49,773 nt of DNA from a virus. A program made the translations under genes and the position numbers. Shown piece by piece: positions 1,625 through 49,603 of this stretch; position 1 is the first letter of the stretch, and the number at the start of each line of letters is the position of its first letter. Location: IMG/VR virus record IMGVR_UViG_3300025598_000053, positions 1-49,773 of that record. One strand, given 5' to 3'. The notes under the pieces are model-generated. The model was not told where the DNA came from and ran no database searches. It worked only from the letters and a program-made list of their open reading frames with translations.

Positions 1625-1626
1625 CA

Positions 1627-2259: not shown

Positions 2260-2260
2260 T

Positions 2261-4023: not shown

Positions 4024-4024
4024 T

Positions 4025-4726: not shown

Positions 4727-4734
4727 GGTAAATT

Positions 4735-5508: not shown

Positions 5509-5511
5509 ATA
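5504..5511 (+). promoter_or_regulatory. Late promoter-like TATAAATA at the spike/gp25 junction
   Basis: Exact T4 late -10 box containing the TAA stop of the spike gene. Only 4 nt separate it from the gp25 ATG (5516), so a T4-like start site would give a transcript beginning at or just beyond the AUG. It may make a leaderless gp25 message, serve the downstream gp6 gene, or be coincidental. Confidence 0.45.
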
Positions 5512-5515
5512 GAAA

Positions 5516-5905
5516 ATGGCAAGTACAATATTTTACTCAGATTTAGATTTACGTTTCCTTCCCAATCCGGTGACGGGTGACGTATCTATGAGTTATAATG
5601 AGCAAGCAGTTATTCGTTCGATTCAAAATCTTTTATATACAAGGCCTTACGAAAGATTATTCGACCCAACAATCGGTAGTGGTCTACCAGCATTGTTATT
5701 TGAACCCATTTCACCCTTAACCGCTAGTAGTATTGAAGATGAGATTAAAAGGCTTATTAGTAACTATGAGCCAAGAGCATCAATTTATCAACTTAATGTA
5801 ACTGCACAAGCAGACAAAGATAGTTTTCAAGTCAGTCTTTATGTTTTTATTGGCAATAATACAACACCGACTGCTATCAATCTAACACTTCAAAGGACTA
5901 GATAA
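5516..5905 (+). CDS. 25: Baseplate wedge protein gp25
   Basis: 129 aa, the usual size for gp25. It has the gpW/gp25 family pattern: DLDLRFLPNPVTGDVSMSYN, EQAVIRSIQNLLYTRPYERL, then FDPTIGSGLPALLFEP and a Pro-Arg turn YEPRASIY before the final strands. gp25 is the wedge core protein that nucleates the contractile sheath and binds gp6 and gp53, and it is related to GpW of other contractile systems. It is joined to gp6 by a TAATG overlap. Immediately upstream is TAAATAGAAAATGG, leaving almost no leader if the promoter is real. Confidence 0.9.
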   Translation: MASTIFYSDLDLRFLPNPVTGDVSMSYNEQAVIRSIQNLLYTRPYERLFDPTIGSGLPALLFEPISPLTASSIEDEIKRLISNYEPRASIYQLNVTAQADKDSFQVSLYVFIGNNTTPTAINLTLQRTR

Positions 5906-7977: not shown

Positions 7978-10900
7978 TGATACAAAGCAATCAAAAAACA
8001 TCATTATTCATACCATCTCAGTTACCTGAGTATCTATTAGATACTTCGGTATATGGTAATAATTTCGTATCGTTTTTACAAGCGTATTATGAATGGATGG
8101 AACTCGCCAATACTGCAAACGCTAATACAGCAACAGCAGATACTAATGGTACCCAAGGTGCTTTATATGCATCAAAGAGTTTATGGGACTACACAGATAT
8201 CGACAATACTCTTGAAGGTTTTCAACAGTATTTCATTAATGATTTTTTACAATATTTCCCAGCAGAATCTTTAATATCACCTACAACTGCTGTAAAAATT
8301 GCAAGACAATTATATCATGCTAAAGGTACACCTGCATCTTATCAATTTTTGTTTAGAATTCTTTTTAATTCTGACTTTGATTATTTTTACACAAAAGATG
8401 CTGTACTTGCCGCTTCTTCTGGTAAATGGTATGTGCCTAAGAGTATTCTACTACAAACATCAGACTTAAACTTTCTAGCGGCAACTAACTATAGAGTATT
8501 CGGTTTAGTGTCAAAATCGTTTGCAACAATTGAAAACGCTATAATTGCCGGTAAAAACATTGAAGTGTTTATTTCGGATATCGAACGATTATTTCAATCT
8601 GGCGAACAAGTTACAGTAGTTGATACAAACAATCAACCAGTTTATTTTTTAAACGGTGCAGTTGTGCCCAAAGGAACAGCGGGTGCTGAAACTTTAACTG
8701 CTGTTATTCTAGGTCAAATTAGTCAGATTAATATTAATCCAACGGCAAGAGGTCTTGGGTATAATGTAGCAGACCCTGTTATTGTTTATGGTGGTTTAAA
8801 TGCAAACATTACTAACCCAATTGGTGCTGTTGCAGAAATTGCATCAGTAACACAAGGTTCAATTCAAAATATTAATGTTGTAAATGGTGGCTATGGTTAT
8901 GCGGTATTTCCTTCTAGCGGCACTTCATTGTATCCAGGAAATGCTTTTTCTGCAATTGCTATTTCGGGTCAACAAACTTCAGGTGCAAATGCAACAGTAT
9001 TCTCTGTAGCGGCAGGTAACACAGTTACAATTTCAATACCCATCGATTCTATTGCAGTTGCTAATGGTTTTCAAATTGGTAACACATTAAGTTTTTTGTC
9101 TGCAAATACCTCGGCAACAGCAAATGCATCATTAGCAAATGCATTGACATTTACATCAATTCAAACTAACCCAATTGCATCTGTTGTATTGAATAATGGT
9201 GGTGGCGGTATTAATTATGTGCCTACTGCAACTGCTTTATCACAGTATGTTTCAAATGATACAACAAATAGCATTTTTGGTAGTATTAGTTCTTTAGGTA
9301 TTCTTGCCCCTATTCAAATCGCAAATACCGGAACAGGTTATAGCAATAACGATACAATCGTATTTACTGGTGGTTATGGTTATGGTGCAAACGCAAAAAT
9401 TCGTGTCGATGCTAACGGTAATGTTATCAATGTTATGTATCAGACTAGCCCAGGTTATACACAAGGTGGTCTAGGTTATGTCGGTGGCGTTCTACCTACC
9501 GTGACAGTCAATACAGCAACAGGTTCTGGTGCAAGTTTATATGTTCCAGGTACTTTAGGTAATGGCGCAACTTTCTCTTTAGTATTGAATCAAATTGGTT
9601 CGGTTTCTCTAATTAATGTTATTGATGCAGGTCAAGATTATATTTCAACACCTAATGTTTCTTTAATTGTTCAAGATATTGCAGTAACTAATTTAGCATC
9701 TTCGTTATTACCGGTTTATGGCCAAATTTTATATCAAGGTTCATCTCTTAACACAGCAACATATGTAGCAACAGTCAATTCTATTTCATTGTTACAGAAA
9801 AATTCTGTAGATATAAATTCGATTTATAATATTAGGGTCTTTAATTATTCATCACAGCCAAATCCTAGTCAACAATTATTGATTAGCAATTCTCGTATTC
9901 ATATGACAATGGTGAATACTGCTTATGGCGGTACACAATATACACAATCAGTATATAATCAATATGGTGTAAGAAACTACGGCGATGGTAATGCACAAGC
10001 ATCAACAAAATATTTAAACGGTCTTGTGATTGGTCAAGGTCAATATCTGACATCATCAGGACAATTAAGTTCATATGATGTTTTACAGAGCAAAGACTAT
10101 AATAACTTCACATATCAGATTACAGTCGAAAAAGCAATTTCAGATTACAGAAATACATTACTAAATCTATTACACCCATCAGGTATCAATCTGATTGGTA
10201 GATATGCATTAAAGTCTAATACAGTTGTTGATTATGGTATTATGGATACCCTAGCAACACAAGAATATCTAAACAAAATTGTCGGCACAAATAATGTGCA
10301 AGGTACTATGAATGTTGCAGATAATCAGTATGTGGCATCTGCAAACACATATTATCATGGTTATAACTACAGCGTAGGTGATGTTTTAACAGTTTCTGGT
10401 GGTACAAGTGTATATCCTGCAAAAATTACTGTTACAAGCGTATATGGTACTGCTAATGATATCGGTTCATTTGCAATAAGCAATGTTGGTAACTATACTA
10501 TTTTCCCAACTAATCCAGTTTCGGTAACTGGTGGTACAGGAGCGACTGCACAGTTTAATTTAGTACCAGACTATTTGTACTATTCTGCAAATACAATTGC
10601 AATTTCATATTTACCAACTGGTAACTATATAAACTATTCTACATTCGTCACAATGTCAACCGCCAATAACTTTAATGTTGTTTCGGGTCTTGCTAATGTA
10701 AACTTTGCCGCTAATACAGTTACATTAACTGATAGTGTTTGGGTACGATTTGCGAATGTTGCTTACGGTACCGGTAACTCTACATCAAACGTAATAAATA
10801 TAGCAAACGTATATACAAGTGTATATAACATTATAAATGATGGTATTTACTCTAATACTTTATATCCAATCGTTGATATTATTCAAACGAATGATGTATT

Positions 10901-11144
10901 AAGTAGCAACGGTTACTTTGTTGGTACTGTTAAGTATGTTGATTATGCAAACAGCATTGTTCGACTGGCCACAAATTCAGCACTAACGTTTACGTCAAAT
11001 ATTGCAGTCAAGAAAATTCCTGTAGCCAATGCAAATCAGATTCTACTCACAGGACCTGTAGGAATTCAATATACACCATTCATCGACACAGAAGATGGAA
11101 GGGATTTAATAACAGAAGATGGAAGTAATATTCTTTTAGGATAA
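7977..11144 (+). CDS. 7: Baseplate wedge protein gp7-like, with repeated GxGY beta modules
   Basis: 1055 aa. The first ~140 residues contain QLPEYLLDTSVYGNNFVSFL, YYEWMELAN and ARQLYHAKGTPASYQFLFRI with LFNSDFDYFY. This matches the conserved part of T4 gp7 (PDSYLL...FxAFCEAY...STKGIEASYKFLFKVLYNEE), which in T4 lies near the C-terminus. The rest is largely beta, with several GxGY modules (ARGLGYNVADPVIVYGG, NTGTGYSNNDTIVFTGG, DAGQDYISTPNVSLIV), and ends DTEDGRDLITEDGSNILLG. gp7 is a peripheral wedge protein that binds gp8 and gp10. It lacks the large N-terminal region of T4 gp7, so domain order differs. Position between gp6 and gp8 supports the call. Confidence 0.7.
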   Translation: MIQSNQKTSLFIPSQLPEYLLDTSVYGNNFVSFLQAYYEWMELANTANANTATADTNGTQGALYASKSLWDYTDIDNTLEGFQQYFINDFLQYFPAESLISPTTAVKIARQLYHAKGTPASYQFLFRILFNSDFDYFYTKDAVLAASSGKWYVPKSILLQTSDLNFLAATNYRVFGLVSKSFATIENAIIAGKNIEVFISDIERLFQSGEQVTVVDTNNQPVYFLNGAVVPKGTAGAETLTAVILGQISQININPTARGLGYNVADPVIVYGGLNANITNPIGAVAEIASVTQGSIQNINVVNGGYGYAVFPSSGTSLYPGNAFSAIAISGQQTSGANATVFSVAAGNTVTISIPIDSIAVANGFQIGNTLSFLSANTSATANASLANALTFTSIQTNPIASVVLNNGGGGINYVPTATALSQYVSNDTTNSIFGSISSLGILAPIQIANTGTGYSNNDTIVFTGGYGYGANAKIRVDANGNVINVMYQTSPGYTQGGLGYVGGVLPTVTVNTATGSGASLYVPGTLGNGATFSLVLNQIGSVSLINVIDAGQDYISTPNVSLIVQDIAVTNLASSLLPVYGQILYQGSSLNTATYVATVNSISLLQKNSVDINSIYNIRVFNYSSQPNPSQQLLISNSRIHMTMVNTAYGGTQYTQSVYNQYGVRNYGDGNAQASTKYLNGLVIGQGQYLTSSGQLSSYDVLQSKDYNNFTYQITVEKAISDYRNTLLNLLHPSGINLIGRYALKSNTVVDYGIMDTLATQEYLNKIVGTNNVQGTMNVADNQYVASANTYYHGYNYSVGDVLTVSGGTSVYPAKITVTSVYGTANDIGSFAISNVGNYTIFPTNPVSVTGGTGATAQFNLVPDYLYYSANTIAISYLPTGNYINYSTFVTMSTANNFNVVSGLANVNFAANTVTLTDSVWVRFANVAYGTGNSTSNVINIANVYTSVYNIINDGIYSNTLYPIVDIIQTNDVLSSNGYFVGTVKYVDYANSIVRLATNSALTFTSNIAVKKIPVANANQILLTGPVGIQYTPFIDTEDGRDLITEDGSNILLG

Positions 11145-11147
11145 TAA

Positions 11148-12410
11148 ATGTCAACAGTAAAAATTTCAGCATTACCAACTCTAACAGCGTTTGCAGGTGC
11201 CAATACTGGCAATGCCACATTTGTAGGTGTTGATGCATCACAAGGAAAAACAGTTCAGTTTACTGGAACAACTCTCGCTCAACAGTTGTATTTGAATAAT
11301 TCTTTAGTTGTTGGTAATAATACTATTCAATTATTAAATACTATTGCACAGTTCTCAGGTAATTCAAACAGTTATTTGCAAATTAATGCACAAAACTTTA
11401 ACCCTAACGGTTCAATTGACGTTGTTTTAACTGCTGATGACGGTACTGATTCGGGTGGTTATATTGATTTAGGTTTGAATAACTCACTATGGAACGCAAA
11501 TGCCGCTGGTCAAACATCACAGTTTCCGCATGACGGTTATTTAATTGTTGATGGTCCTGGCGCAAATTCTACAGGTAATCTTGTAATAGGTACTGCAAAC
11601 CCAGGTACTAACGTTGTATTTGCTGTTGCCGGTTATCAATCAAACAATATTGTTGCAGTTATTACTGCTAATGGTCTTGTTATGAATACTAACACTTATA
11701 TTACTTTTGCTGATGGCACAGTTCTTTCAAGTGCTAAGTCTAGTGCATATACGAATGCCGCATATGCTCAAGCAAACTCTGCCGCTTCTTTTGCTAATGC
11801 CGCTTTTACAGAAGCAAACTCAGCATCTGCTTGGGCAAACGGCATCAATGCAACACAGAATACTAATATAACTGCCGCTTATACCCAAGCAAACGTTGCA
11901 AACTCAATTGCAAATACAGCAGTTCAGAATACGGCAACTATTCAAATAAACAATTTAAATGTATCAGGTAACGTAGTTTCATCAGGAAATATTACTGGTG
12001 CTTACATGTTTGGTAATCAAAGTTCCATGACAGGTTCTGTTACTGCAACTACTATTATTGCAAACTCGTATACATACAGTTCAAATACAACAGCAACTGC
12101 AATTCAAACTGGTAGTAGAACAACTTTAGTGTATGCAAACGGAACTTCTGGTGTCATTGTAGGTTACAATGCAAGTGCATTACAACATCAAACAGGTTAT
12201 GTATTTACTGTGTATAACAGCTCAGTTTTACATCCTTCTGATATTGTTATTGTTTCTGTTCAGAGTACAAACTGCCCAGTACTTCAAGTTTCTACAGCAA
12301 ATACTAGAGCAGGAAGTTTTGATGTTGCAGTTTACAATGCTTCAAGTGCCGGTAACGATGCCGCATACACAATGAATCTTAACTTTGGTATTATTAGGGT
12401 CGGATCTTAA
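11148..12410 (+). CDS. Fibre-like structural protein inserted between gp7 and gp8
   Basis: 420 aa. The N-terminus VKISALPTLTAFAGANTGN resembles attachment modules of small phage fibres. Residues ~95-165 carry a DGTDSGGYIDLGLN...DGYLIVDG...LVIGTANPG module also recognisable in the 533-aa and 936-aa fibres. Residues ~205-250 are Ala/Asn heptads (AYAQANSAASFANAAFTEAN), and the end is a beta domain. No T4 counterpart is known between genes 7 and 8, so this looks like a fibre gene placed within the conserved wedge operon. It might be a short decoration anchored on the wedge; function is not established. It starts 3 nt after gp7. Confidence 0.65.
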   Translation: MSTVKISALPTLTAFAGANTGNATFVGVDASQGKTVQFTGTTLAQQLYLNNSLVVGNNTIQLLNTIAQFSGNSNSYLQINAQNFNPNGSIDVVLTADDGTDSGGYIDLGLNNSLWNANAAGQTSQFPHDGYLIVDGPGANSTGNLVIGTANPGTNVVFAVAGYQSNNIVAVITANGLVMNTNTYITFADGTVLSSAKSSAYTNAAYAQANSAASFANAAFTEANSASAWANGINATQNTNITAAYTQANVANSIANTAVQNTATIQINNLNVSGNVVSSGNITGAYMFGNQSSMTGSVTATTIIANSYTYSSNTTATAIQTGSRTTLVYANGTSGVIVGYNASALQHQTGYVFTVYNSSVLHPSDIVIVSVQSTNCPVLQVSTANTRAGSFDVAVYNASSAGNDAAYTMNLNFGIIRVGS

Positions 12411-36383: not shown

Positions 36384-37985
36384 ATGGCAAATACAATAGT
36401 AAAAATTAAAAAATCAGGTGTAACTGGTAACGTACCAGGTTCACTAGCATTGGGTGAGTTAGCAATTAACTATACCGATGGATTATTGTATTTTGCTAAT
36501 GCTACAGGTGTCAGAGCATTTTCGGCTAACGACTCAATTCTCGCAAACGCCGCCTTTGCACAAGCTAATGCCGCTTTCAATGCGGCTAATAGCAGTTCAG
36601 GTACAGCGGCCGCTTATAATCAAGCCAATGCCGCTTTTGCTCAAGCAAATAATATTTCTAGTTATGCTAATGCACAGATAGCAATTACACAAGGTGTTGA
36701 TACAACTCAGAATACAAACATTAGTTCTGCTCAGTTGTTCGCTAACGGTGCATTTACTGCCGCTAATGCGGTTAATACTTACGCATATGCCGCTTATGCA
36801 TCTCAAAATATTACCGCTGGTTTTGCGAATGCCGCCTATACTTTAGCAAACACAGTAAATGTATACTCATATAGTGCATACGGTTTTGCAAATACAATTA
36901 ACGTTTATGCTTATAGTGCTTATAGCGCACAGAACATAACAGCAAGTTTTGCGAATGCCGCTTTCGCTCAAGCTAATGCGGCCTTTAATCAAGCCAATAC
37001 AGGTTCAAGTTCTGCACCCGCTTTTAATCAAGCGAATGCCGCATTTATACAAGCAAACAATGCATATAATAAAGCAAATAGTGCTTTAGCAAATACTGGT
37101 GGTACTTTAACTGGTTCTCTAGGTATTACAGGTTCGTCATCAAACATTGTTGTTTCTCAGAGTGCGACAGCAAGTGATGTAACAAACACATTCAATCATT
37201 TATATACTTTAGGTTTATTCTCTGGTAATACCGACCAGTCAATACAAGTTGGTGCACAGAACTTCGCCAACACAGCAAATTCATCTACCGATTTTGCGTT
37301 GTACAATAATATTGGTACCGATACTAATAACTATATTGATTTAGGTATCACAAGTAAAGCATATAATACAACACTAAACGGTTTCACAGCATCACAACCA
37401 GGTGACGGATATCTATATTCTAACGGTGTTAACTTATTACTAGGTACATATACACCTGGTACTAATATGAAAGTGTTTATTGGTGGCTATACATCAGCAA
37501 ACGTTTCTACAACATTTAATGCACCGAACACAGCATCAAGTTCAAATACTACAGGCACTCTGCTCGTTCAAGGTGGTGTAGGTGTAACTGGTAATGTATA
37601 CTCAGATAAGATTTATACAAACGGACTATATTATGCCGCTAACGGTAACCCAATATCAACTGGTGGAGGTGGTGGCACAAGTTTAGTCTATACAGCCGCT
37701 ACGACACCACCAGCATCAGGAAATAACAAAGGTGACCAGTGGTACAATACTGCAACTAATGTATTGTATGAATGGGCAACTGACGGTACAAGTTACTTCT
37801 GGTTAGACACAATATCACCAGTATATTCAAATACTGCAAACGTAAACATAATTACATCTGGTAATGTTAATACTAATGTGGTCTTTGCGAACTCGGTATA
37901 TATAGGAACTCAAAATGCAAATTCATATATACAATCATACATTCAACAAAACACGATACATCCACTAATGTTTGTGGGTCTATAG
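36384..37985 (+). CDS. Fibre protein, cassette A first gene, ending in TAG
   Basis: 533 aa. N-terminal attachment motif NVPGSLALGELAINYTDGLL. Heptads at ~55-240. A module STDFALYNNIGTDTNNYIDL, DGYLYSNGVNLLLGTYTPG shared with the 420-aa protein. The C-terminal ~100 residues (PPASGNNKGDQWYNTATNVL; YEWATDGTSYFWLDTISPVY; IGTQNANSYIQSYIQQN; MFVGL) are paralogous to the whole 110-aa and 183-aa proteins of cassettes B and C. The stop is TAG, three codons before and in frame with the next gene; the bases TAGGGG also act as its ribosome binding site. Confidence 0.8.
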   Translation: MANTIVKIKKSGVTGNVPGSLALGELAINYTDGLLYFANATGVRAFSANDSILANAAFAQANAAFNAANSSSGTAAAYNQANAAFAQANNISSYANAQIAITQGVDTTQNTNISSAQLFANGAFTAANAVNTYAYAAYASQNITAGFANAAYTLANTVNVYSYSAYGFANTINVYAYSAYSAQNITASFANAAFAQANAAFNQANTGSSSAPAFNQANAAFIQANNAYNKANSALANTGGTLTGSLGITGSSSNIVVSQSATASDVTNTFNHLYTLGLFSGNTDQSIQVGAQNFANTANSSTDFALYNNIGTDTNNYIDLGITSKAYNTTLNGFTASQPGDGYLYSNGVNLLLGTYTPGTNMKVFIGGYTSANVSTTFNAPNTASSSNTTGTLLVQGGVGVTGNVYSDKIYTNGLYYAANGNPISTGGGGGTSLVYTAATTPPASGNNKGDQWYNTATNVLYEWATDGTSYFWLDTISPVYSNTANVNIITSGNVNTNVVFANSVYIGTQNANSYIQSYIQQNTIHPLMFVGL

Positions 37986-37994
37986 GGGATATCA

Positions 37995-38324
37995 ATGGCA
38001 GTTAATTATAAAATTTTAGGACAATCTAATCCGGCCGCTAATACTACCACAACAGTATACACGGTTCCTGCGGCCACTCAAACTGTCGTTTCAACTATTC
38101 AAGTTTGCAATCTCTCACCAAACACATCAAGTTTTTCTATAGCGGCACAAAAAGCAGGTGCATCATTAGCAAACTCAATGTATCTTGCATATCAAACACC
38201 AATACCTGGTAACGATTCAATCAATTACACATTAGGTGTAACTCTTGGTAATACAGATGTAGTATCTGTTTCAGCAAACACAGGGAACATAACATTCTCT
38301 TTATTCGGATCTGAACTTTCATAA
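37995..38324 (+). CDS. Small beta protein, cassette A
   Basis: 109 aa. LGQSNPAANTTTTVYTVPAA, TQTVVSTIQVCNLSPNTSSF and VTLGNTDVVSVSANTGNITF, ending SLFGSELS. It is clearly paralogous to the 109-aa protein of cassette C (same length; AQSNPAANT, TQTVVSTFQVCN, LGNTDTVTVQANT, FGSEIT). The pattern resembles small beta-sandwich proteins beside tail fibres. It is coupled to the LamG gene by a TAATG overlap. The function is unknown; an adaptor between stalk and tip fits the position. Confidence 0.75.
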   Translation: MAVNYKILGQSNPAANTTTTVYTVPAATQTVVSTIQVCNLSPNTSSFSIAAQKAGASLANSMYLAYQTPIPGNDSINYTLGVTLGNTDVVSVSANTGNITFSLFGSELS

Positions 38325-41300
38325 TGGGAATTAGAAGAGCATCAATTGGTACGACAGCCGAAAGAACGGTTAGAAATCAGAGCATATTGCTACCGACTGG
38401 TGGTGCTGTTTCTACTGGTATAACAACTGTTGTTTATACTGACAGCAATTATAATACGCTAACTGCTAATGCGGCCGCTACAACATACGGTACGTTTAGA
38501 ATTTTAGGTACCGGTTTTTCACCAGGTGCAAATGTTTTGGTAGCTAACACAAGTTCAGGAACCATTGCAAACGTCACATCAAATACAACATATATAGGTG
38601 CAACTGAAATTCGTGCAAACGTAAGTGTGACTGCTGGTAACTACGCATTGTACGTTTTTAATCCTAACGGTTCAGCGGCAATCTATTATTCTGGTGTAAC
38701 ATTTCAACCATATCCTGTGTGGACAGCAACGAGTTATGCATCTGCCACTACAGTTTCTGTTCAACTTTTAACATCTTCTACTGCTGTCGAACAGCCTATT
38801 ACATATTCTTTAGTATCAGGTACGTTACCTACAGGTACAACATTGGCGGCTAACGGTTTAATTAGTGGTACTGCTACAGGTATTCCTAATGCTGGTCAAA
38901 CATTCACATTTACAGTTGCCGCAACAGACATCTATAATGAAACGACACAGGCATCAATCAGTTTAACAATTACGGTAGCTGATGCATATTTTGATTACAC
39001 TACATTGTTGTTGAATGGTGAGACTAATTCGAACACTTATATACAAGATGCCGGTGCAAATAATTTTACGCTAACCCCATATGGTTCTTCAACATCAAAT
39101 AGATTCAGCCCTATGTGGGGCGATGGTTATTATGGTAATTCTTTTGATGGTAGTTCTGGGTTTTTAATAACAGCGGCCAATTCTATTCTTGCACCTTCAG
39201 CAGATTTTACAGCAGAGGCTTGGGCATACACTACAATTAATAATAACTTTCAAGGTATAATGAGTACAAGAGATTCCGGTTCAACAACAGGTTGGGGAAT
39301 CACAATAAATTCATCAGGATACTTAGAATTTGTTTGTACTGGTGCAACAGCATATACAGGTACATTAGCACCTTTAAACAGATGGTTTCATGTTGCAATG
39401 TCAAAAGTCGGAAGTACTGTATACTGTTATTTGAATGGTGTTCAAGTTGGAACTTTACCAAGTTCGCCGGCAATTAGCTACAATAGTCTTGGGTTAAGTC
39501 TTGGTAGATACTATAGTAACGGTAGTAATCAATATTGGTTAAATGGTTATATTAGTAATGCACGTTATATAAATGGAACCGGCATATACACAGGAAGTAG
39601 TTTTACAGTTCCTACAACACCATTGACAGCGATTGCAAATACTGCTGTCCTAACTTGTCAATCAAATAGATTTATTGATAATGGTCCTAACGGATTGGCA
39701 ATAACACCGTCAGGTACAGTTAAAGTAGTACCTAATCAACCATTTGGTTCAATACCAACAACATCAACAGCAAATACAAACAATACTGGTTACTATAGTG
39801 CTCAGTTTGATGGTAGTACGGGGTATTTAAATCTAGGGGGTCAATCGACATTTGCATTTGGCTCTAATAGTTTTACTATTGAGGCTTGGATATACCCATT
39901 AACCGCTAGTCAAACATCTGTTATAACTGATTTTAGACCCTCAGGAGGTAGCGGAGTATATCAATTATTTTATTTAAATTCAGGTGCTTTAACTTATTGG
40001 GTAAACGGCACAGGTGTTATTGTAGGAAGCTCGCCAGTTGCTGGCGTATGGAGCCACGTTGCAGTAGTAAGGAACGGTACAAGTACAATTATGTATTTAA
40101 ATGGTGTTCAAACAGGTTCTACGTATTCAGATTCTAATAGTTATCTTAATGGCGCCAACGCTCCAGTAATTGGAGGTTTAGGCTATACGAGAGGCCAAAA
40201 CATTTTTAACGGCTATATTTCTAACTTTCGTATTGTTAATGGTACCGCAGTATATACTTCAAACTTCACCCCACCGACCACACCACTAACAGCAGTTACA
40301 AATACTTCTCTATTAACATTACAAAATTCTGTTATTGTTGATAACTCTGCAAATGCATTTACTTTGACACCGACTGGTTCAGTTATAGTATCTAAGAATC
40401 AACCATTTGCTTCACCGACAGTTACAAGTAATACTATAACACCAAGTGTTTATGGTAGCGTATTGCTTGATGGATCAACAGGATACATGCAAGTACAAGA
40501 ATCATCTAATCCTGCATTTGCACTTTCAGGTGATTTTACAATTGAATTGTGGTATTATCCAACAGGTACATCAGGTGGTTACATATACGCACAAACTGTA
40601 AGTGGTACAAATTGGTGTATTATTGGTGCAAGTACTACAACATTAACTGCCGCACAATTTACCGCAACAACGAGTGGTGCTGGCACCGCACAGAATAGTG
40701 CGGCAGTTGGAAATCCATATTCATGGAATCACTTAGCAGTTTGTAGAAAAAGTGGACAAGTAACTGTCTACTTAAATGGTGTTGGTGGTACATCAGTTAC
40801 AAATACAACATCAATACCATCAACATACTTACCAACCATTAGCGGTTATTCACATTCACAAACAGGTTTATTTGCTGGTTATATTTCAAACATTAGGGTA
40901 ATTAACGGTACCGCAGTTTATACGAATAACTTTATACCCCCAACTAGCCCACTAACAGCAGTTGCAAATACATCAGTATTATCATTGCAATATAAAAATT
41001 CAGCAAATAACAATGTGTATTATGATGACAGCCCAAATAATTTAGTAATTTCTAGAACAGGCATTCCAACACAAGGTACATTTAGCCCATTTAGTCCAAC
41101 AGGATGGAGTAATTACTTAGGTGGTTCTGGTTACTATATTGTTTCAAATTCAACCCCAATATCAACAACAACTTCAACATTCACTATTGAAGGTTGGATA
41201 AACATGTCGGCAACGCCAGGAGGTTCTGCAAATCCTGCTTTGATTGGTGACATGAACCCAACTGCGGGAACTTGTAATTGGAGTTTTGGACCTAATAACT

Positions 41301-42967
41301 CAAACGTTTTAGAATTATATGTTGTTGGTGGAACATCTTATACTATTACCGGAAACACAGTAATGTCTTTAGGTACTTGGTATCATGTTGCTGTTTCGGT
41401 AAACTCAAATTCAGTTTCAATGTATGTAAATGGTGTACAGCAAACATTAACTGGCGGCTCGACAATTGTAAATAGAAGCGGTTCTATAGGTTATTTGACT
41501 ATGGGACAATGGAATAGCGGTTCATTTAATTACGCCGGATATGTTAGTAATTTAAGAATATCGAATGTCGCATTATATTCTTCTTCATTCACACCAAGCA
41601 CAGCACCATTAACTGCAATATCTAGTACAGTATTTTTGACTGCCCAGAATAATGGTTTTGTTGATAACTCGACAAACGGGTATAGATTAACTGCAACACA
41701 AGCCTCTGTTCAAGCAGTTTCACCTTTTGCACCAGGCGTCATATACAATCCAGCAGTACATGGGGCAAGTTCATATCACTATAGCGGAAATTATATTTAT
41801 GGTAGTAATCAGATATTCAACGTAAGTAGTCCATCAATGCAATGGCAATTTGAGTGTTGGGTTTATCCAGTAAATCAATCATTCTTCTTTTGTATTGGTA
41901 ACGGTGGTGCGTATGGAAATTCATTCAATTGCGGATTTCAAGGTAATCAATTTACTTTTACTCAGGGTAATGGCAGTAATGGAACAGTAGCAACTCTTAA
42001 TTCAACAACAAATACTTATAATTATAATCAATGGTATCATTTTGCGATAACTAAAAACGCATCAGGTGTTATTACAATGTGGGTTAATGGTACTTCTCAA
42101 GGTACTGTAACTAATACATCAGGAACTGCCGCTTCAGGCACAACATTTATTATTTGTGGATTATATGATAATGGTGGATTAGGTTATAGTGGTTTCAGCG
42201 GTGGTTCATTTGTTAGTTATTTTAGTATTGCTAACCCGAGATTTATTGCCGGTGCTCCAATTTATACATCTGCATTTACACCACCTACTGCACCTGTAAC
42301 TGCTGTTGCGAATACAGCATTGCTATTGAATTTTACTAACACAGGTATTCAAGATGCTACAGGTAAAAATAATATTATAACTTATGGTTCTGCAAAGACT
42401 CAAGCAAACACAACTAAGTTTGGAACTGGTGCATTGTATTTTGATGGTTCAACTGGATATTGTTCATTCCCTAATGCATTTCCAACCAGCCCTTATTTAA
42501 ATCTTGGTTCAAATAATTTTACAATTGAGTTTTGGTTATATCCTATAACTTTTTCAAATGGTAGTGCATTTTTAACTAAAGGATGGACCGGAAGTTATGG
42601 TTCATTTTTGTTTTATTATTACAACAATACAACACCTCAAATTTATTTTTACGCAGGCTCAAATAATTCTGCATGGGATATTGTAAATGGTGTTTCGATA
42701 AATTCAAATTTAAGTTCAAATACTTGGACACATATTGCAGTAACTCGTTCAGGTAGTAACTTTTATTTGTTCTCAAATGGTGTTTTAACCAATACTGTAA
42801 CGTCATCGGCTTCAATATATAACAGTACTGCACCGGTAACAGTCGGTGGTGATAACTCTGGAGGTCATTTATCTAATTGTTATATTGACGATTTAAGAAT
42901 CACAAATGGTGTTGCACGATATACATCAACCTTTACCCCAACATCATTAGCTTTTTTAACACAATAA
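38324..42967 (+). CDS. Receptor-binding tip with IPT/TIG, Ig-like and six LamG domains
   Basis: 1547 aa. After a basic N-terminus (GIRRASIGTTAERTVRNQ), residues ~60-130 form an IPT/TIG-like domain (ILGTGFSPGANVLVANTS; LYVFNPNGSAAIYYSGV). Residues ~135-215 resemble a putative-Ig (He_PIG) domain (PITYSLVSGTLPTGTTLAAN; GLISGTATG). Six LamG/concanavalin-like units then start near residues 273, 494, 715, 930, 1149 and 1372, each with FDGSTGY, FTIExW, WxHxAxxRxG, YLNGV and YISNxRxxNGTAxYT elements. LamG folds bind glycans or proteins, so this is probably a multivalent receptor-binding tip. It is a full-length paralogue of the cassette B gene, with almost the same domain register. Confidence 0.8.
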   Translation: MGIRRASIGTTAERTVRNQSILLPTGGAVSTGITTVVYTDSNYNTLTANAAATTYGTFRILGTGFSPGANVLVANTSSGTIANVTSNTTYIGATEIRANVSVTAGNYALYVFNPNGSAAIYYSGVTFQPYPVWTATSYASATTVSVQLLTSSTAVEQPITYSLVSGTLPTGTTLAANGLISGTATGIPNAGQTFTFTVAATDIYNETTQASISLTITVADAYFDYTTLLLNGETNSNTYIQDAGANNFTLTPYGSSTSNRFSPMWGDGYYGNSFDGSSGFLITAANSILAPSADFTAEAWAYTTINNNFQGIMSTRDSGSTTGWGITINSSGYLEFVCTGATAYTGTLAPLNRWFHVAMSKVGSTVYCYLNGVQVGTLPSSPAISYNSLGLSLGRYYSNGSNQYWLNGYISNARYINGTGIYTGSSFTVPTTPLTAIANTAVLTCQSNRFIDNGPNGLAITPSGTVKVVPNQPFGSIPTTSTANTNNTGYYSAQFDGSTGYLNLGGQSTFAFGSNSFTIEAWIYPLTASQTSVITDFRPSGGSGVYQLFYLNSGALTYWVNGTGVIVGSSPVAGVWSHVAVVRNGTSTIMYLNGVQTGSTYSDSNSYLNGANAPVIGGLGYTRGQNIFNGYISNFRIVNGTAVYTSNFTPPTTPLTAVTNTSLLTLQNSVIVDNSANAFTLTPTGSVIVSKNQPFASPTVTSNTITPSVYGSVLLDGSTGYMQVQESSNPAFALSGDFTIELWYYPTGTSGGYIYAQTVSGTNWCIIGASTTTLTAAQFTATTSGAGTAQNSAAVGNPYSWNHLAVCRKSGQVTVYLNGVGGTSVTNTTSIPSTYLPTISGYSHSQTGLFAGYISNIRVINGTAVYTNNFIPPTSPLTAVANTSVLSLQYKNSANNNVYYDDSPNNLVISRTGIPTQGTFSPFSPTGWSNYLGGSGYYIVSNSTPISTTTSTFTIEGWINMSATPGGSANPALIGDMNPTAGTCNWSFGPNNSNVLELYVVGGTSYTITGNTVMSLGTWYHVAVSVNSNSVSMYVNGVQQTLTGGSTIVNRSGSIGYLTMGQWNSGSFNYAGYVSNLRISNVALYSSSFTPSTAPLTAISSTVFLTAQNNGFVDNSTNGYRLTATQASVQAVSPFAPGVIYNPAVHGASSYHYSGNYIYGSNQIFNVSSPSMQWQFECWVYPVNQSFFFCIGNGGAYGNSFNCGFQGNQFTFTQGNGSNGTVATLNSTTNTYNYNQWYHFAITKNASGVITMWVNGTSQGTVTNTSGTAASGTTFIICGLYDNGGLGYSGFSGGSFVSYFSIANPRFIAGAPIYTSAFTPPTAPVTAVANTALLLNFTNTGIQDATGKNNIITYGSAKTQANTTKFGTGALYFDGSTGYCSFPNAFPTSPYLNLGSNNFTIEFWLYPITFSNGSAFLTKGWTGSYGSFLFYYYNNTTPQIYFYAGSNNSAWDIVNGVSINSNLSSNTWTHIAVTRSGSNFYLFSNGVLTNTVTSSASIYNSTAPVTVGGDNSGGHLSNCYIDDLRITNGVARYTSTFTPTSLAFLTQ

Positions 42968-42970
42968 ATA
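42963..42970 (+). promoter_or_regulatory. Late promoter box AATAAATA before cassette B
   Basis: AATAAATA contains the TAA stop of the 1547-aa gene and lies 23 nt before the ATG at 42994, with AAAAGGAG (42977-42984) as ribosome binding site. Confidence 0.6.
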
Positions 42971-42993
42971 GAACATAAAAGGAGAAAATTGAG

Positions 42994-43389
42994 ATGAGTC
43001 ATTTTGCACAGATAGATGCTAACAACATTGTTACCAGAGTTCTTGTCATTGAACAAGACATGGTAAACACTGGTCTATTTGGAGAGCCTAATACCTTCAT
43101 TCAGACCTCATACAATACAAGAAACGGTATTCATTATGATCCTGTTACAGGTCAAGAAGACAGCGGTACTGCATTGAGATATAGATATGCTGGTATCGGT
43201 ATGGTTTATGACAGAGCAAATGACGTTTTCGCATTACCAAAACCAGAAGGTATGAACAGTTGGGTTTACTCAAGCAACACATGGGCTTGGAAACCTCCTG
43301 TTGACATGCCTACAGATGCAGTACCACCAAATTATTACAGATGGGAAGAGTCTAACACTTCTTGGATTCTAATAACAGTAACACAATAA
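42994..43389 (+). CDS. Small fibre-associated protein
   Basis: 131 aa. SHFAQIDANNIVTRVLVIEQ, NTFIQTSYNTRNGIHYDPVT, RYRYAGIGMVYDRANDVFAL, then a Trp/Pro-rich end (SWVYSSNTWAWKPPVDMP; YYRWEESNTSWIL). This is a widespread small protein of marine myoviruses (MxxFAxLDxNNxVxxVxVV...YAGIGYxYD...DVFxxPxP..SW), usually next to fibre genes. The biochemical role is not known. It has the clearest ribosome binding site in this part of the window and heads the cassette B transcription unit. Confidence 0.8.
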   Translation: MSHFAQIDANNIVTRVLVIEQDMVNTGLFGEPNTFIQTSYNTRNGIHYDPVTGQEDSGTALRYRYAGIGMVYDRANDVFALPKPEGMNSWVYSSNTWAWKPPVDMPTDAVPPNYYRWEESNTSWILITVTQ

Positions 43390-43390
43390 C

Positions 43391-43723
43391 ATGGCATTTC
43401 CAACCTCACCCACTAACGGTCAAACAGCAGTAGTAAATGGTATTTCATATACCTATAACTCTACGACTAATTCGTGGGGAAGAGTTGCTCAAAGTGTCCG
43501 AATCACATACACAGCGAGTCCTACACCACCTACAAATCCACTTCAAGGTGACCAGTGGTACAATAATACGACTGATGTGCTTTACGAATACACAAACGAT
43601 ACCGTTTCATCTTATTGGTTAGACATACAGACACCAGCATTTGTTGGTTCAAACGCAACAACAGTTACAGGAGTATCGACAGGTAAATCACTTGCTATGT
43701 CGGTATTATTCGGAGCACAATAA
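43391..43723 (+). CDS. Linker protein, cassette B
   Basis: 110 aa. AFPTSPTNGQTAVVNGISYT then YNSTTNSWGRV is the NGQTAxVNGIxYxYNSxxNxWxR module typical of phage fibre N-termini. GDQWYNNTTDVLYEYTNDTV, SSYWLDIQTPAF matches the C-terminal part of the 533-aa fibre and the middle of the 183-aa protein. It is the short version of the linker common to all three cassettes. The stop and next ATG overlap (TAATG). Confidence 0.75.
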   Translation: MAFPTSPTNGQTAVVNGISYTYNSTTNSWGRVAQSVRITYTASPTPPTNPLQGDQWYNNTTDVLYEYTNDTVSSYWLDIQTPAFVGSNATTVTGVSTGKSLAMSVLFGAQ

Positions 43724-44073
43724 TGACAACCCCTAATCTAGTTCAAATCAATTATCTAAACGGCAATACAGCAGTACAAAACGTTACGACAACTGCAACT
43801 GCTATTATTTCAAATGCAAATAATTCAAATCAATTGTTTAGAATTGACAGTTTAGTTGTTGCAAATTATTCTACGAACGTTCAATATATTACCGCAGACA
43901 TATACAGAAACAATGTACCTTATATTATTGTTTCAAATATTTCAATGCCGGCAAATACAACCTTCGGTGTCTTTGATAGAATCTTCTATGCAAATGAAGG
44001 TGATGCAATTCGTCTAACAGCAAGTAACAACGGCACACTTCAAGCAGTTGCAACATACGAGGTAATGGGTTAA
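43723..44073 (+). CDS. Small beta protein, cassette B
   Basis: 116 aa. LVQINYLNGNTAVQNVTTTA, FRIDSLVVANYSTNVQYITA, DIYRNNVPYIIVSNISM and FGVFDRIFYANEGDAIRLTA then ATYEVMG. It occupies the same slot and is about the same length as the 109-aa proteins of cassettes A and C but is not obviously homologous at sequence level, so it looks like a positional replacement. It is coupled to the following LamG gene by TAATG. Confidence 0.7.
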   Translation: MTTPNLVQINYLNGNTAVQNVTTTATAIISNANNSNQLFRIDSLVVANYSTNVQYITADIYRNNVPYIIVSNISMPANTTFGVFDRIFYANEGDAIRLTASNNGTLQAVATYEVMG

Positions 44074-46004
44074 TGTTTAATGGTGGATTTAAAGGTGTAA
44101 GAGCGGCTGATGGCGCCGGCTTTGTCTCGGCTAGAGATGTTGCCGTTCAGCAGAGTAGTCCACAACCTAAAATAACTTCTTGGGCATACACTAATGGTGC
44201 TTATGTGCCTTATCCCGATACTGCTATTGCTGGTGGTGAAACTATAGTTATTTACGGTTCAGGCTTTCAAAGTAACGCTAACGTAGTTATTGGTGGCACA
44301 ACAATAACAAGCACAAGACTAGATCCAAATAGAATTACATTTACTGCACCATCTTTGAGTGCTGGTTCTTATCCTCTTTATGTTGCGAATCCTGGTGGTG
44401 GTACAGCAGTTTATTTACCTGGAGTAGTATACAATAGTTATCCAGTTTTTAATTCAACGTCATATGCAAATACATTTGTATCAGCAACAACGTCTGTAGG
44501 TTTTAGTTTGAATGTCACTGGTTCTCCAAGTTTAACATTTAGTTTACAAAGCGGTTCGAGTTTACCAACAGGATTGACTTTAGCGGCTAACGGATACATT
44601 TCAGGTAGTACGACAGTATCAAATACAACAGTATACAATTTTACTGTTATTGCAACAGATTCATATGCACAAGCAACTCAGGCATCTATAACATATACAA
44701 TTACATATGTTATTTCTGATACATATTTTAATTCTACAACATTGTTATTAAACGGTGAGACTAATACAAATACATATATTCAAGATATAAGTACAAACAA
44801 TTTTGCGTTGACACCCATCGGTGCGGCAACACCAAATAGATTTAGCCCTCTATGGGGAAATGGATATTATGGTGTTGATTTTTTTTATGGTGGCTTTCAA
44901 ACACCTGCAAGTAGTTTAACAAATATTACTGGAAGTTTTACTTCAACCTCAACGTTTACAATTGAGACGTTTGTTAAAATGAACGCATTGCCGGCTTCAA
45001 CGGGCGTTAATCTTGTTGGTGATATGCAAGTTACATCAACATTAAATTATTGGTCATTTCAGATTAATACTTCAGGACAGTTACAACTATATTGGTACAA
45101 CGGTTCAGTACAAACAGCAGTTGGTAATACTGTAATGGTGCCTGGTTCTTGGTATCATGTAGCAGTTTCAATTTCATCCGGTGCTATTAAATTATTTGTG
45201 AATGGTGTTTTACAAACTATAACAGGAACAACTACGACATCAACACCAACAGGTTCAACTTCATATATTTCTGTTGGTGAATATAATTCTTATGGTTTTA
45301 ATGGTACTTTAAGTAATCTTAGAATTTCAAGTACGGCATTATATTCAACAACATTTACCGCACCAACATCACCATTAACATCACAAGCAAATACTACTTT
45401 CTTGTCATGCCTATCAAATCAATTTTCAGACATTGGTCCAAATAGTTATGCATTAACATTAAGTTCAACACCAAAAGTGGTTGCAAGTCAACCATTTGCG
45501 ACATTACCAACAACATCAACAGCAAATACAAACGGTCAAGGATATTATAGCGGTGCAATTCTTGGTGGTAGCAATTTACTAACTTATCCAACTTCATTAA
45601 ATTTAGGTACTGCACCATTTACAATTGAATTTTGGTTCTATATTTCGAATCTTGGTAATAGCGGCATTTATTTTTTGTATGATTATATCAATAACAGTTC
45701 AAGATGGACAGTACAATGGAACGGACCCGGATGGGCAATTGGGCATTATGATGGAGGTAGTTGGATATATACTGCAACTTCAACAAGTTCAGTAACACTA
45801 GGACAATGGACGCATTTAGCAATTACTAGAGATTCTAGTAGTACAATGAGAGTGTATGTGAATGGTGTTTTAGGTGCTACGACTGCAAACTTTACAAGAA
45901 ACTTTACAAATTCTGGTAGTTCAAAAACAATTCTAAATGACCCTACTGGTGATGGTACAGCAACTGGTTTCATGTCAAATCTACGTATCGTTAACGGTAC
46001 GTAG
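44073..46004 (+). CDS. LamG receptor-binding protein, N-terminal part up to an in-frame TAG
   Basis: 643 aa. IPT/TIG-like domain at ~45-115 (ETIVIYGSGFQSNANVVIGG; SLSAGSYPLYVANPGGGTAV), Ig-like domain at ~120-210 (SLQSGSSLPTGLTLAANGYI), then LamG units starting near 268 and 492. It ends FMSNLRIVNGT-stop, just where paralogous LamG repeats read NGTAVYT. The same frame continues without interruption as IYTGSSFTPSTTPLTAV into the 872-aa ORF. If the TAG were a sense codon the protein would be ~1537 aa with six LamG units at the same positions as its 1547-aa paralogue. Either a truncated or inactivated gene, a readthrough protein, or a local sequence error. Confidence 0.8.
   Translation: MFNGGFKGVRAADGAGFVSARDVAVQQSSPQPKITSWAYTNGAYVPYPDTAIAGGETIVIYGSGFQSNANVVIGGTTITSTRLDPNRITFTAPSLSAGSYPLYVANPGGGTAVYLPGVVYNSYPVFNSTSYANTFVSATTSVGFSLNVTGSPSLTFSLQSGSSLPTGLTLAANGYISGSTTVSNTTVYNFTVIATDSYAQATQASITYTITYVISDTYFNSTTLLLNGETNTNTYIQDISTNNFALTPIGAATPNRFSPLWGNGYYGVDFFYGGFQTPASSLTNITGSFTSTSTFTIETFVKMNALPASTGVNLVGDMQVTSTLNYWSFQINTSGQLQLYWYNGSVQTAVGNTVMVPGSWYHVAVSISSGAIKLFVNGVLQTITGTTTTSTPTGSTSYISVGEYNSYGFNGTLSNLRISSTALYSTTFTAPTSPLTSQANTTFLSCLSNQFSDIGPNSYALTLSSTPKVVASQPFATLPTTSTANTNGQGYYSGAILGGSNLLTYPTSLNLGTAPFTIEFWFYISNLGNSGIYFLYDYINNSSRWTVQWNGPGWAIGHYDGGSWIYTATSTSSVTLGQWTHLAITRDSSSTMRVYVNGVLGATTANFTRNFTNSGSSKTILNDPTGDGTATGFMSNLRIVNGT
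45981..46004 (+). other. 24-nt near-perfect palindrome ending exactly at the TAG
   Basis: The left half CTACGTATCGTT and right half AACGGTACGTAG are complementary at every position except 45988/45997, which form a T-G (G-U) pair. The centre is GTTAAC. The last three bases are the in-frame TAG. The paralogous site in the 1547-aa gene (near 40231) reads GGTACCGCA and lacks this symmetry. Confidence 0.9.
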
Positions 46005-46067
46005 ATTTATACCGGAAGCAGTTTTACACCAAGCACGACACCATTAACTGCTGTTGCCGGTACTACA

Positions 46068-48686
46068 ATGTTGACATTACAAAATTCAACATTCATTGAC
46101 AACTCAGCAAACAATAATGTATTTACTCCAACAGGTTTGCCTTATGTGTCTCAGAATCAACCGTTTGCATCACCAACAGTTACAAGTAATACTATAACAC
46201 CTAACATATACGGTTCTGGATATTTGGATGGTAGTACTGGATATCTAACAACACCAGCGGGAAGTTATGCTGATTTTGGTAGTAACGCATTTACTGTTGA
46301 GTGCTGGATATATACAACAGTAACTTCAACGCAACAAGTTATAGCGTTTCATGGTTGGTCTGGATCAGGAGGGTATAACAATGGTTGGAATTTGCAAATT
46401 AATACTAGCAACCAAATAGCTTTTTATGCTAACGGCACATTAGTAGCGTTTACTGATTTAGTAATATCACCAAATAACTGGACGCATATTGCAGTAGTTG
46501 GTTCAGGTGGAGTACTGTCAGCTTATAAAAATGGAATAAAAAGCACAGTTACAAACACTTACACTTCTATTGTAGCTAGAGCAACTGCGACTACTGTATT
46601 AGGCGGATGGAATAATACAAATGAAAATATTGCTGAAAGATATTGGTATGCAGGATACATTAGTAATTTTAGAATAGTCAATGGTACTGCACTATATACG
46701 AATACTTTTTTACCACCAAATCAACCAGTAACACCAATTTCTAATACGCAATTATTATCATTGCAATATAAAAATTCAGCAAATAATAATGTGTTCTACG
46801 ATGATTCTGTTAATAATTGGCCTTTAACTAGAACCGGTGCCGCAACACAAGGAACATTTACACCATTCACTCAAACAGGATGGAGTAATTATTTCGACCA
46901 AGGTATCGGTGGATTTATATCAACACCAGGTAACCCCACACAATTACAATTAGGTTCAAATAACTTTACAGTAGAATGTTGGTTCTTTATGACGGCCGCA
47001 CCGACTTGGTCCGTTGCAACTATTTTTAGTGTTGAAGCAAATGGTTTAGATGGAGTATTCATTGGTATAAATGGTACAAATACTCCTACTATGCAACCTG
47101 TGATGTATTTGTCAACTACCGGCGGTTCTTATACAGGTAATGCAAATCCTGGATTATTTTCAACAACATTGTCGTTGAATAAATGGACACACATTGCTTA
47201 TGTACGTAACGGTAATGTATTTTCTTGTTACATAAACGGTGTACAAGACCCAACAACATTTATATTACCAGGTGCTTTATCATACAATTCTAGTTGCAAT
47301 GCAACTGTCGGTGCAAGAGCGGCTAATGCTGGTAACTATTTCCCTGGTATTTTAAGTAATGTTAGAGTAATTAATGGTACGGCACTTTATACCAGTAATT
47401 TTACACCATCAACAACACCATTAACAGCAGTTGCAAATACTGCATTATTAACTTGTCAAAGTAATAGATTTATAGATAATTCAAACAATACTTTTACTCT
47501 AACTCAACCTAATGGTGGTGTGCAAGTTGAACCGTTTTCACCATTTCCACCAGGCGTAACGTACTCAACCGCAAACAATGGGGCGTCATTGTATTTTAGT
47601 AGTTCAAGTGACTCTGTTGTACAAGGTTCAACTACTGCTTGGGTATTTGCTGGTGATTTTACAATTGAAGGATGGTTCTTTTTCATGCCTTCAGGTGCAG
47701 GAACTTCTAGAGCGTTTGTTAATACCTCAGGCGGTAACATGTATTTGAATACCGATAATACATTACACTATGTGTTTCAAGGCGTTACAGATTTTGGTAG
47801 TTCTCAAACAGTAAATGCAGGACAATGGGTTCACCTAGTTGTATGTCGAAACGGAGGAACTTATAGATTCTTCGTAAACGGTAACATGACTACAGGTACA
47901 GGCAGTACAGCATCTATAGGTGCAACAGGAGGAATAAACGTAGGAACAGCGAGTGCGTTTTATGCTTACGGTGTTAAAATTTCAAATGGTGTTTCATTAT
48001 ATAATTCTTCTTTTACGATTCCAAACTCATTGACTACAGTTGCATCAAACAATTCTTTGGCACTATTAGGTACAAATTCAGGTATTCAAGATGTTACTGG
48101 TAAAAATGATATTATAACATATGGTTCTCTGAAAACACAAGCCAACACAGTTAAGTTTGGTAATAATTCAATGTATTTTGATGGTAGTACAGGTTATGCT
48201 TTAATACCAAACTCAGCATTTATGTTGGTCGGTTCTAGCAATTTTACAATCGAATATTGGTTATACCCAACAACATCAACGACTCAAAGTCCATTCATGT
48301 TAAATGGAAATGGATCTGGCTATGGTATACGAGCAGATATAGTTGGCACTTCAAATTACGTACAATTATTAGTTTCGACAAGTGGTAGTTCATGGGCTAT
48401 CAATTCGACAAGTAGTACAGCAGTATCACTTAACAGTTGGTCGCATATAGCGATAGTGAGAAACGGAACTGCTATGACGGTTTATCTCAATGGAAATAGC
48501 ATTATTAGTACCACGATATCCGGTTCTATTGTATTAGGAACTATTAATTATGTTGGTGCATCATATTATAGTAGTGCGCCAGTTTACTTTTTTAACGGTT
48601 ATATGGATGATTTTAGAATTACGAATGGTATTGCTAGATATACCGGTAACTTTACTCCACCAGCCTTTCAATTTTTAGGTCAATAA
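46068..48686 (+). CDS. LamG receptor-binding protein, C-terminal part after the TAG
   Basis: 872 aa counted from the first ATG (46068); the open frame actually continues directly from the TAG at 46004. It has four LamG units starting near 46217, 46890, 47583 and 48175 (SGYLDGSTGYLTTPAG; FGSNAFTVECWIY; NNWTHIAVVGSGG; AGYISNFRIVNGTALYT), and ends FNGYMDDFRITNGIARYTGN with FTPPAFQFLGQ, as in the paralogue. No ribosome binding site precedes ATG 46068, which lies inside a LamG linker, so independent translation is doubtful. The coding sequence is intact over 2.6 kb, with no other stop or frameshift, which argues that any inactivation is recent or that readthrough occurs. Confidence 0.75.
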   Translation: MLTLQNSTFIDNSANNNVFTPTGLPYVSQNQPFASPTVTSNTITPNIYGSGYLDGSTGYLTTPAGSYADFGSNAFTVECWIYTTVTSTQQVIAFHGWSGSGGYNNGWNLQINTSNQIAFYANGTLVAFTDLVISPNNWTHIAVVGSGGVLSAYKNGIKSTVTNTYTSIVARATATTVLGGWNNTNENIAERYWYAGYISNFRIVNGTALYTNTFLPPNQPVTPISNTQLLSLQYKNSANNNVFYDDSVNNWPLTRTGAATQGTFTPFTQTGWSNYFDQGIGGFISTPGNPTQLQLGSNNFTVECWFFMTAAPTWSVATIFSVEANGLDGVFIGINGTNTPTMQPVMYLSTTGGSYTGNANPGLFSTTLSLNKWTHIAYVRNGNVFSCYINGVQDPTTFILPGALSYNSSCNATVGARAANAGNYFPGILSNVRVINGTALYTSNFTPSTTPLTAVANTALLTCQSNRFIDNSNNTFTLTQPNGGVQVEPFSPFPPGVTYSTANNGASLYFSSSSDSVVQGSTTAWVFAGDFTIEGWFFFMPSGAGTSRAFVNTSGGNMYLNTDNTLHYVFQGVTDFGSSQTVNAGQWVHLVVCRNGGTYRFFVNGNMTTGTGSTASIGATGGINVGTASAFYAYGVKISNGVSLYNSSFTIPNSLTTVASNNSLALLGTNSGIQDVTGKNDIITYGSLKTQANTVKFGNNSMYFDGSTGYALIPNSAFMLVGSSNFTIEYWLYPTTSTTQSPFMLNGNGSGYGIRADIVGTSNYVQLLVSTSGSSWAINSTSSTAVSLNSWSHIAIVRNGTAMTVYLNGNSIISTTISGSIVLGTINYVGASYYSSAPVYFFNGYMDDFRITNGIARYTGNFTPPAFQFLGQ

Positions 48687-48712: not shown

Positions 48713-49264
48713 ATGTCATTTCCAGTCGCAACATCAAACGGTCAAACAGCATTAGTTAACGGCATTACGTATGTCTGGAACTCTTCTATTGGCACTTGGA
48801 CTCGCCAACAGGCTTACCTTGGTCAAATAATTGTTTCTAATACTGCGCCGTCAATTAACGTTGTCGGTACTCAATGGTATTCTCAGACTGACGATGTTAT
48901 CTATGAGTGGACTACAAGCAACGGAAGTAACTTCTTCTGGTTAGATATCTCATCTTCTGCGGTAGTTTCAAACGTTGCGTTGACACCATTTCTAACAAGT
49001 ACTATTGCAAATAGCGCAAACACATTTGCCAATACAGCAAACGCATTAGTTCTTGCTCAAGAAACGCTTTCAACGGCAAACGTTTCAAATTACGCAAATA
49101 ATGTTGTCGCAAATTTAGCAAACGGTATATATGCATCGGCAACATTAAATGTTAATTCTGTTAATGCAAATACATTGAGTATCGGAACTCAAAATGCTAA
49201 TACATACATATTATCATACATGCAACAAAATTCTTTCAACCCATTCTTCTTAGCGGGAATGTAG
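48713..49264 (+). CDS. Linker/fibre protein, cassette C first gene, ending in TAG
   Basis: 183 aa. NGQTALVNGITYVWNSSIGT then WTRQ, GTQWYSQTDDVIYEWTTSN and NFFWLDISSSAV parallel the 110-aa cassette B protein. A short Ala/Asn-rich segment (ANTFANTANALVLAQ) and the C-terminus IGTQNANTYILSYMQQN, FFLAGM parallel the 533-aa protein of cassette A. It appears to be a compact version of that fibre without the heptad stalk. The stop is TAG, three codons before and in frame with the next gene, and forms part of its TAGAGG ribosome binding site. Confidence 0.75.
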   Translation: MSFPVATSNGQTALVNGITYVWNSSIGTWTRQQAYLGQIIVSNTAPSINVVGTQWYSQTDDVIYEWTTSNGSNFFWLDISSSAVVSNVALTPFLTSTIANSANTFANTANALVLAQETLSTANVSNYANNVVANLANGIYASATLNVNSVNANTLSIGTQNANTYILSYMQQNSFNPFFLAGM

Positions 49265-49273
49265 AGGTACATT

Positions 49274-49603
49274 ATGCCAATAAAATACAGAACATTAGCC
49301 CAATCAAATCCTGCCGCAAATACACCTACTGTAATCTATACAGTACCGGCAAATACACAGACTGTCGTTTCAACATTTCAAGTCTGTAATCAAAACGTAA
49401 ATGCGGCATCTTTCTTTATTTCAACGCAAGTTGCTGGTGCATCATTAGCAAACTCTCAGTATGTTGCTTTCAACACAACAGTACCAGGATACGACTCAAT
49501 TTCATTTACTATTGGTATGGCTTTAGGTAATACAGATACCGTAACAGTTCAAGCCAATACACCTAACGTTTCATTTGTAATGTTTGGATCGGAAATAACC
49601 TAA
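49274..49603 (+). CDS. Small beta protein, cassette C
   Basis: 109 aa, paralogue of the cassette A protein of identical length: TLAQSNPAANTPTVIYTVPA, NTQTVVSTFQVCNQNVNAAS, GMALGNTDTVTVQANTPNVS and a FGSEIT end. It sits between the linker gene and a new tip gene, with a TAATG overlap to the latter. The function is unknown; conservation between cassettes with different tips suggests an adaptor role. Confidence 0.75.
   Translation: MPIKYRTLAQSNPAANTPTVIYTVPANTQTVVSTFQVCNQNVNAASFFISTQVAGASLANSQYVAFNTTVPGYDSISFTIGMALGNTDTVTVQANTPNVSFVMFGSEIT

Follow-up and report, generated by a model that had tools for sequence, protein, structure and literature searches.

How does a gene whose frame is otherwise open across six LamG domains come to carry one in-frame TAG, embedded in a palindrome? 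The gene lies in the window, by which we mean the whole 49,773-nt stretch of IMG/VR virus record IMGVR_UViG_3300025598_000053 analysed here. The first-pass annotation, made from the letters alone, had proposed that a hairpin-templated replication error created the stop.

A single TAG interrupts a six-LamG gene

The gene, its parts and its intact paralogue are as follows.

44073..48686, + strand, six-LamG gene with one in-frame TAG; open in three near-identical contigs (ORFs, Pfam, contig comparison)
44073..46004, + strand, expected translated part, 643 aa, which stops near the close of the second LamG domain (ORF, Pfam)
46002..46004, + strand, in-frame TAG; alanine codon in three relatives (contig comparison)
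46068..48686, + strand, in-frame ORF 3' of the stop, 872 aa, LamG 3-6, with an internal ATG as its start (ORF list)
38324..42967, + strand, intact six-LamG paralogue, 1547 aa (ORF, Pfam)

The claim that a TAG breaks an otherwise open frame was borne out by an ORF and translation check, as the triplet at 46002-46004 is the sole stop within the + strand frame 44073-48686, which spans 1537 aa when TAG is counted as one residue. The claimed domain-for-domain likeness to the paralogue also held, with six Laminin_G_3 stretches assigned by Pfam to the read-through frame and six to the intact gene. The second LamG domain corresponds to Pfam stretch 498-642 (profile positions 2-143 of 151), and the TAG sits where it ends, directly after the strand motif S-N-L-R-I-V-N-G-T. 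When the strict form of this motif was sought in 52 sources (the window plus 51 loci, near-duplicates counted and other LamG repeats outside the count), the residue following it at 44 sites was Ala in 36, Gly in 5 and Cys in 2, and a stop was seen only in the window. The paralogues had initially been described as reading NGT-AVY, which is correct for two repeats of the gene at 38324 but not for a third, which reads NGT-GIY; within the interrupted gene, NGT-ALY is found in two other repeats.

Near-identical contigs carry a sense codon

The 51 loci were obtained by an IMG/VR protein search. Three of them (L006-L008), belonging to three contigs referred to as G001-G003, are 99.957% identical to the window over 11.7 kb. 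The other 48 are more distant, with a best-segment protein identity over the query of at most 54%. L006 has the gene uninterrupted, as one frame of 1537 aa, and over its length L007 and L008 do not differ from L006. Between the window and L006, the protein changes at two positions only: the stop, which is Ala in L006, and the residue directly after it (Ile for Leu). The first-pass annotation had left it to be checked whether relatives all carry the TAG; once run, this check favored its reading, as the three near-identical relatives all have a sense (alanine) codon. The TAG form was found in one contig only, the window, against three near-identical contigs without it. Furthermore, a search with a DNA pattern in which the seven positions were left free matched only the same three contigs, the window's own record perhaps being omitted.

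G001 (IMGVR_UViG_3300025357_000008), the longest of the three relatives, aligns without gaps from window position 11792 to the end. Over window 12026-49773 (37.7 kb), a SNP at 32938 and six differences at 46001-46007 are all that separate it from the window. G002 and G003 are the same as G001 at 32938 and at 46001-46007; in everything compared, the sites unlike G001 number two for G002, one of them at window 24821, and one for G003. The SNP at 32938 is the only other one right of 12025 that is common to all three relatives, and is located 35 nt upstream of an ORF starting at 32973. We found no publication naming the data sets of these relatives, which may stem from one lake or be re-assemblies of the same samples, so that they are perhaps not independent.

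Several features of the surroundings were observed along the way. Window 1-12025 shows 79-90% identity to G001/G003 where alignable, compared to about 100% beyond, and the last difference of this left part is at 12025; the sharp boundary falls inside the gene at 11148-12410 and is either a mosaic (recombination) boundary or an assembly join. Two paralogous modules, 37962-38324 and 49241-49603, each consist of a gene ending in G-T-Q-N...TAG, 9 nt, and the in-frame start of a 109-aa protein. The locus L009, with 85% DNA identity over window 42879-44883, shares both the stop and the spacing of the first module (37985). We considered the TAG junctions at 37985 and 49264 as a recoding-like pattern and set them aside, since a separate start 9 nt on and paralogous 109-aa proteins indicate that these are probably ordinary adjacent genes. 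In G001 there is a tmRNA gene with the tag ANDELFALAA, matched by beta_tmRNA (RF01850, 140.5 bits) and, in overlap, by permuted tmRNA (RF04321, 135 bits). Together with 24 tRNA genes, it is located at L070:8653-9001 and L072:6277-13273, and the set may hint at a betaproteobacterial host. Known phage records contained no near DNA match to the window, and at the protein level gave 18 matches, all below 60% identity (26-32% in the ten listed).

The rewritten tract mirrors the upstream arm

Around the TAG, the following elements were delimited.

45977..46008, no strand assigned, 32-nt palindrome, 15 of 16 pairs (palindrome search, shuffles)
45985..46000, no strand assigned, 16-nt quasipalindrome core, 7 of 8 pairs, present in the three relatives; presumed fold-back stem of 6 pairs including one G-T, with the loop TTAA (relatives, folding)
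45977..45984, + strand, upstream arm, presumably the template for the new bases (sequence comparison)
46001..46007, + strand, rewritten tract, 6 of 7 bases unlike the relatives; holds the TAG (sequence comparison)

The palindrome reported earlier, said to be 24 nt long with the TAG as its last triplet, is real, but its length is 32 nt and the TAG is not at its end. When one mismatch and up to 8 nt of spacer were allowed, 45977-46008 is the strongest palindrome in the window; its only mismatch is a T/G pair at 45988/45997, and a wider, weaker pair of arms was also detected around it. The best result in 200 dinucleotide shuffles was 14 pairs, reached in 3 of them, and none reached 15. By itself, the palindrome is only moderately improbable, and it is the comparison with the relatives that decides.

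This comparison revealed that window 46001-46008 is the reverse complement of 45977-45984, the complete exact mirror being 45998-46008 against 45977-45987. The axis of the new mirror is the axis of the 16-nt quasipalindrome already present in the relatives, the 3' edge of this core is where the change starts, and pairing rose from 7 of 8 in the relatives to 15 of 16 in the window. The proposed conversion of CTAC into GTAG was too narrow, as the copied tract comprises 7-8 new bases. A copy accounts for the difference in one direction only: an inverted copy fails to explain the relatives' tract as derived from that of the window. Inversion of a short segment was also rejected, since reverse-complementing the replaced bases does not yield the tract.

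Within 1 kb around the site (500 nt on each side), a single inverted source was found for the 7-base tract, and a direct source is absent. Over a 20-kb piece its matches number two inverted and two direct, no more than is usual at this length. The chance that the six changed letters match the existing axis is 0.0015, whereas a random 6-of-7 cluster finds an inverted source somewhere within 100 nt in 1.3% of trials (0.013), so that the copy match without the pre-existing axis makes a weaker case that is not overwhelming. A count over 60,040 nt of G001 pieces gave 37 sites with a 16-nt core of like quality, and the joint chance of axis match and core is roughly 2e-6.

As a control, we took from the 51 loci 23 pairs that are near-identical, totalling 153,456 aligned bases, in which 32 distinct clusters of at least 4 differences separated other near-identical LamG loci. 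An inverted copy within 60 nt explained none of the 24 clusters that were at least 7 nt long and 2 of the 32 in all, both of five bases and compatible with chance; the control is weak, as many of the clusters listed (40 of 57 rows) lay in diverged stretches near alignment ends and long clusters are harder to explain by a single exact copy. No second template-switch case was seen at the motif in the 52 sources.

A probable template switch at a pre-existing quasipalindrome

We conclude that the TAG is probably the product of a real and recent template-switch mutation at a quasipalindrome, which arose during replication of a T4-like phage. The exact inverted copy and the unmutated relatives thereby support the hairpin-templated error put forward in the first-pass annotation. 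During + strand synthesis, the nascent 3' end at 46000 would have folded back over the core 45985-46000 and been extended on its own upstream arm, 45984-45977 being copied as 46001-46008, before the nascent strand returned to the normal template in register. Such an event would have changed six bases at once, lengthened the palindrome from 16 to 32 nt and converted to TAG an alanine codon that lies late in LamG domain 2.

The sequence difference, the exact geometry of the copy and the fact that only one direction fits a copy are direct observations. That the six changes correspond to one event is suggested by their clustering, since all six lie within 7 nt and 37.7 kb contain a single further SNP, and the event itself would have taken place in the cell. 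Folding with DNA parameters predicted that the core on the + strand pairs into a stem of 6 pairs, one of them G-T, that closes a TTAA loop and ends exactly at 46000, while the same core on the - strand gave no fold. Therefore, we favor + strand synthesis with intrastrand priming, and suppose that fold-back was used rather than a switch to the other strand. The core hairpin of the relatives is weak, at -0.6 kcal/mol (DNA parameters) or -1.2 when 32 nt are folded, and another fold, at -3.7, is predicted for a 51-nt stretch of a relative, so that an intermolecular switch is a possible alternative to fold-back. Much greater stability is predicted for the completed palindrome, with -10.7 for 45970-46020.

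The baseplate genes of the phage include a tail tube cap (phrog_230) and a wedge (phrog_219), which we take to be T4-type parts, and it is on this assumption that we call the phage T4-like. Furthermore, G001 contains an open frame of 869 aa that aligns with positions 22-236 of the 453 in the family B DNA polymerase profile (DNA_pol_B), and this partial match makes the parallel with T4 reasonable.

Other origins of the TAG

The same bases could also result from fold-back copying in the test tube, during end repair, polymerase extension of single-stranded ends at the palindrome or whole-genome amplification, and have entered a low-coverage consensus. We regard such an artefact, a caveat already raised in the first-pass annotation, as unlikely, though with a real chance of being the cause. 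The confinement of the TAG form to one of four contigs would fit it, and so would the chimeric reads containing palindromes with mismatched bases that are described for enzymatic fragmentation in PMC10908179, where some short chimeric parts are said to be hard to recognize as soft-clipped. However, the artefact calls described there are of low frequency and coupled to soft-clipped reads, while the sequence of the window rejoins the normal template in register. An assembly consensus also normally follows the majority of reads, and the window is a distinct strain or a join, given its mosaic left end and its own SNP at 32938.

Gene conversion or recombination with a paralogue, or with another phage already carrying these bases, might be expected of a repetitive gene family in a window that is mosaic elsewhere (left of 12026), but we consider it extremely improbable. 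No donor was found in the window, in the 67 loci or in G001-G003: with up to 3 mismatches allowed, the 18-nt sequence of the TAG site matches nowhere else in the window, the 3 of the 67 loci that contain one of its 12-mers are all excerpts of the window itself, and another 12-mer occurs once in G001, once in G002 and not in G003, with unrelated flanks in G001, the only flanks inspected. Moreover, the tract is just 7 nt long and mirrors its own neighbor. Independent point mutations, or a functional stop in the form of a recoded or suppressed TAG, are very improbable as well. Six independent hits in 7 nt are implausible given one other SNP in 37.7 kb. TAG does end other ORFs of the window (37985 and 49264), but there as an ordinary stop; the sense codon in 3 of 3 near-identical relatives argues against suppression or recoding, and no CTA anticodon was found among the 24 tRNAs of the G001 pieces or in the window. 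Thus, a template switch remains our preferred explanation.

Predicted consequences for the protein

If the TAG acts as a stop, the expected product is 643 aa long and 894 residues with LamG 3-6 would be lost. The next in-frame ATG listed, at 46068, has no Shine-Dalgarno-like run in the preceding 30 nt, which makes re-initiation there appear unlikely, although some neighboring genes likewise lack such a run. Since re-initiation is unlikely and the G001 pieces encode no CTA anticodon, the gene likely yields a truncated adhesin-like virion protein that is probably defective. A putative role of this gene as an adhesin or tail fibre is suggested by its LamG domains and its location downstream of tail genes.

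A bolder view, to which we give little credence, is that a segregating nonsense allele of a phage adhesin was made in one step in the wild by the template switch, and that truncation might be advantageous through changed host binding. The codons of the last LamG strand (VNGT, with GTT-AAC central) can build quasipalindromes, so that template switches could offer a recurrent route to variation in these repeat proteins.

Comparison with known template-switch mutations

Template-switch mutations are usually studied by laboratory reporters or by comparison of lineages. Here, the unmutated state is available at 99.9% identity, and direction, tract, axis and likely priming stem can be read from it. 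This suggests that near-identical viral contigs could be scanned for template switches to estimate their rate in natural phages. For annotators, a stop inside a palindrome may represent a fresh mutation or a library artefact instead of recoding.

In the mechanism outlined in PMC7202029, a nascent strand at a quasipalindrome templates on itself and then returns, which increases complementarity. By the account given there, yeast CYC1 and phage T4 rIIB provided the first observations of the link to quasipalindromes (Ripley 1982), and cases that follow the Ripley model include E. coli thyA. PMC8604942 describes a template switch as needing two hops, intra- or intermolecular. As in the cases summarized in PMC7202029, an imperfect inverted repeat became a longer and better palindrome in the window, several adjacent bases changed in one apparent step and one arm served as the likely template. 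Unlike them, the window comes from an uncultivated phage, the site lies in a LamG-repeat gene, the unmutated sequence is found in near-identical relatives, and base substitutions alone occurred, with length unchanged.

Clustered substitutions that copy a nearby inverted sequence are also reported, as far as these sources describe them, in genome comparisons of great apes (PMC7954356), yeast coding genes (PMC8604942) and rRNA hairpins (PMC8794818). In contrast to these surveys across genomes or lineages, of which PMC8604942 states that gene sets with premature stops were excluded, the window presents one apparently very recent nonsense allele in a phage. A search of the open-access literature revealed no nearer published example from phages or metagenomes. 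The library-preparation artefacts described in PMC10908179 likewise involve pairing of inverted repeats followed by copying, but are reported there as low-frequency events found mostly in soft-clipped reads, whereas the window is an in-register assembled consensus. Three features by which template switches are recognized were found at this site, namely an imperfect inverted repeat in the unmutated sequence, an exact reverse complement about the same axis and increased pairing. Although the mechanism has long been known and the window does not represent a new system, it provides an unusually clean natural example.
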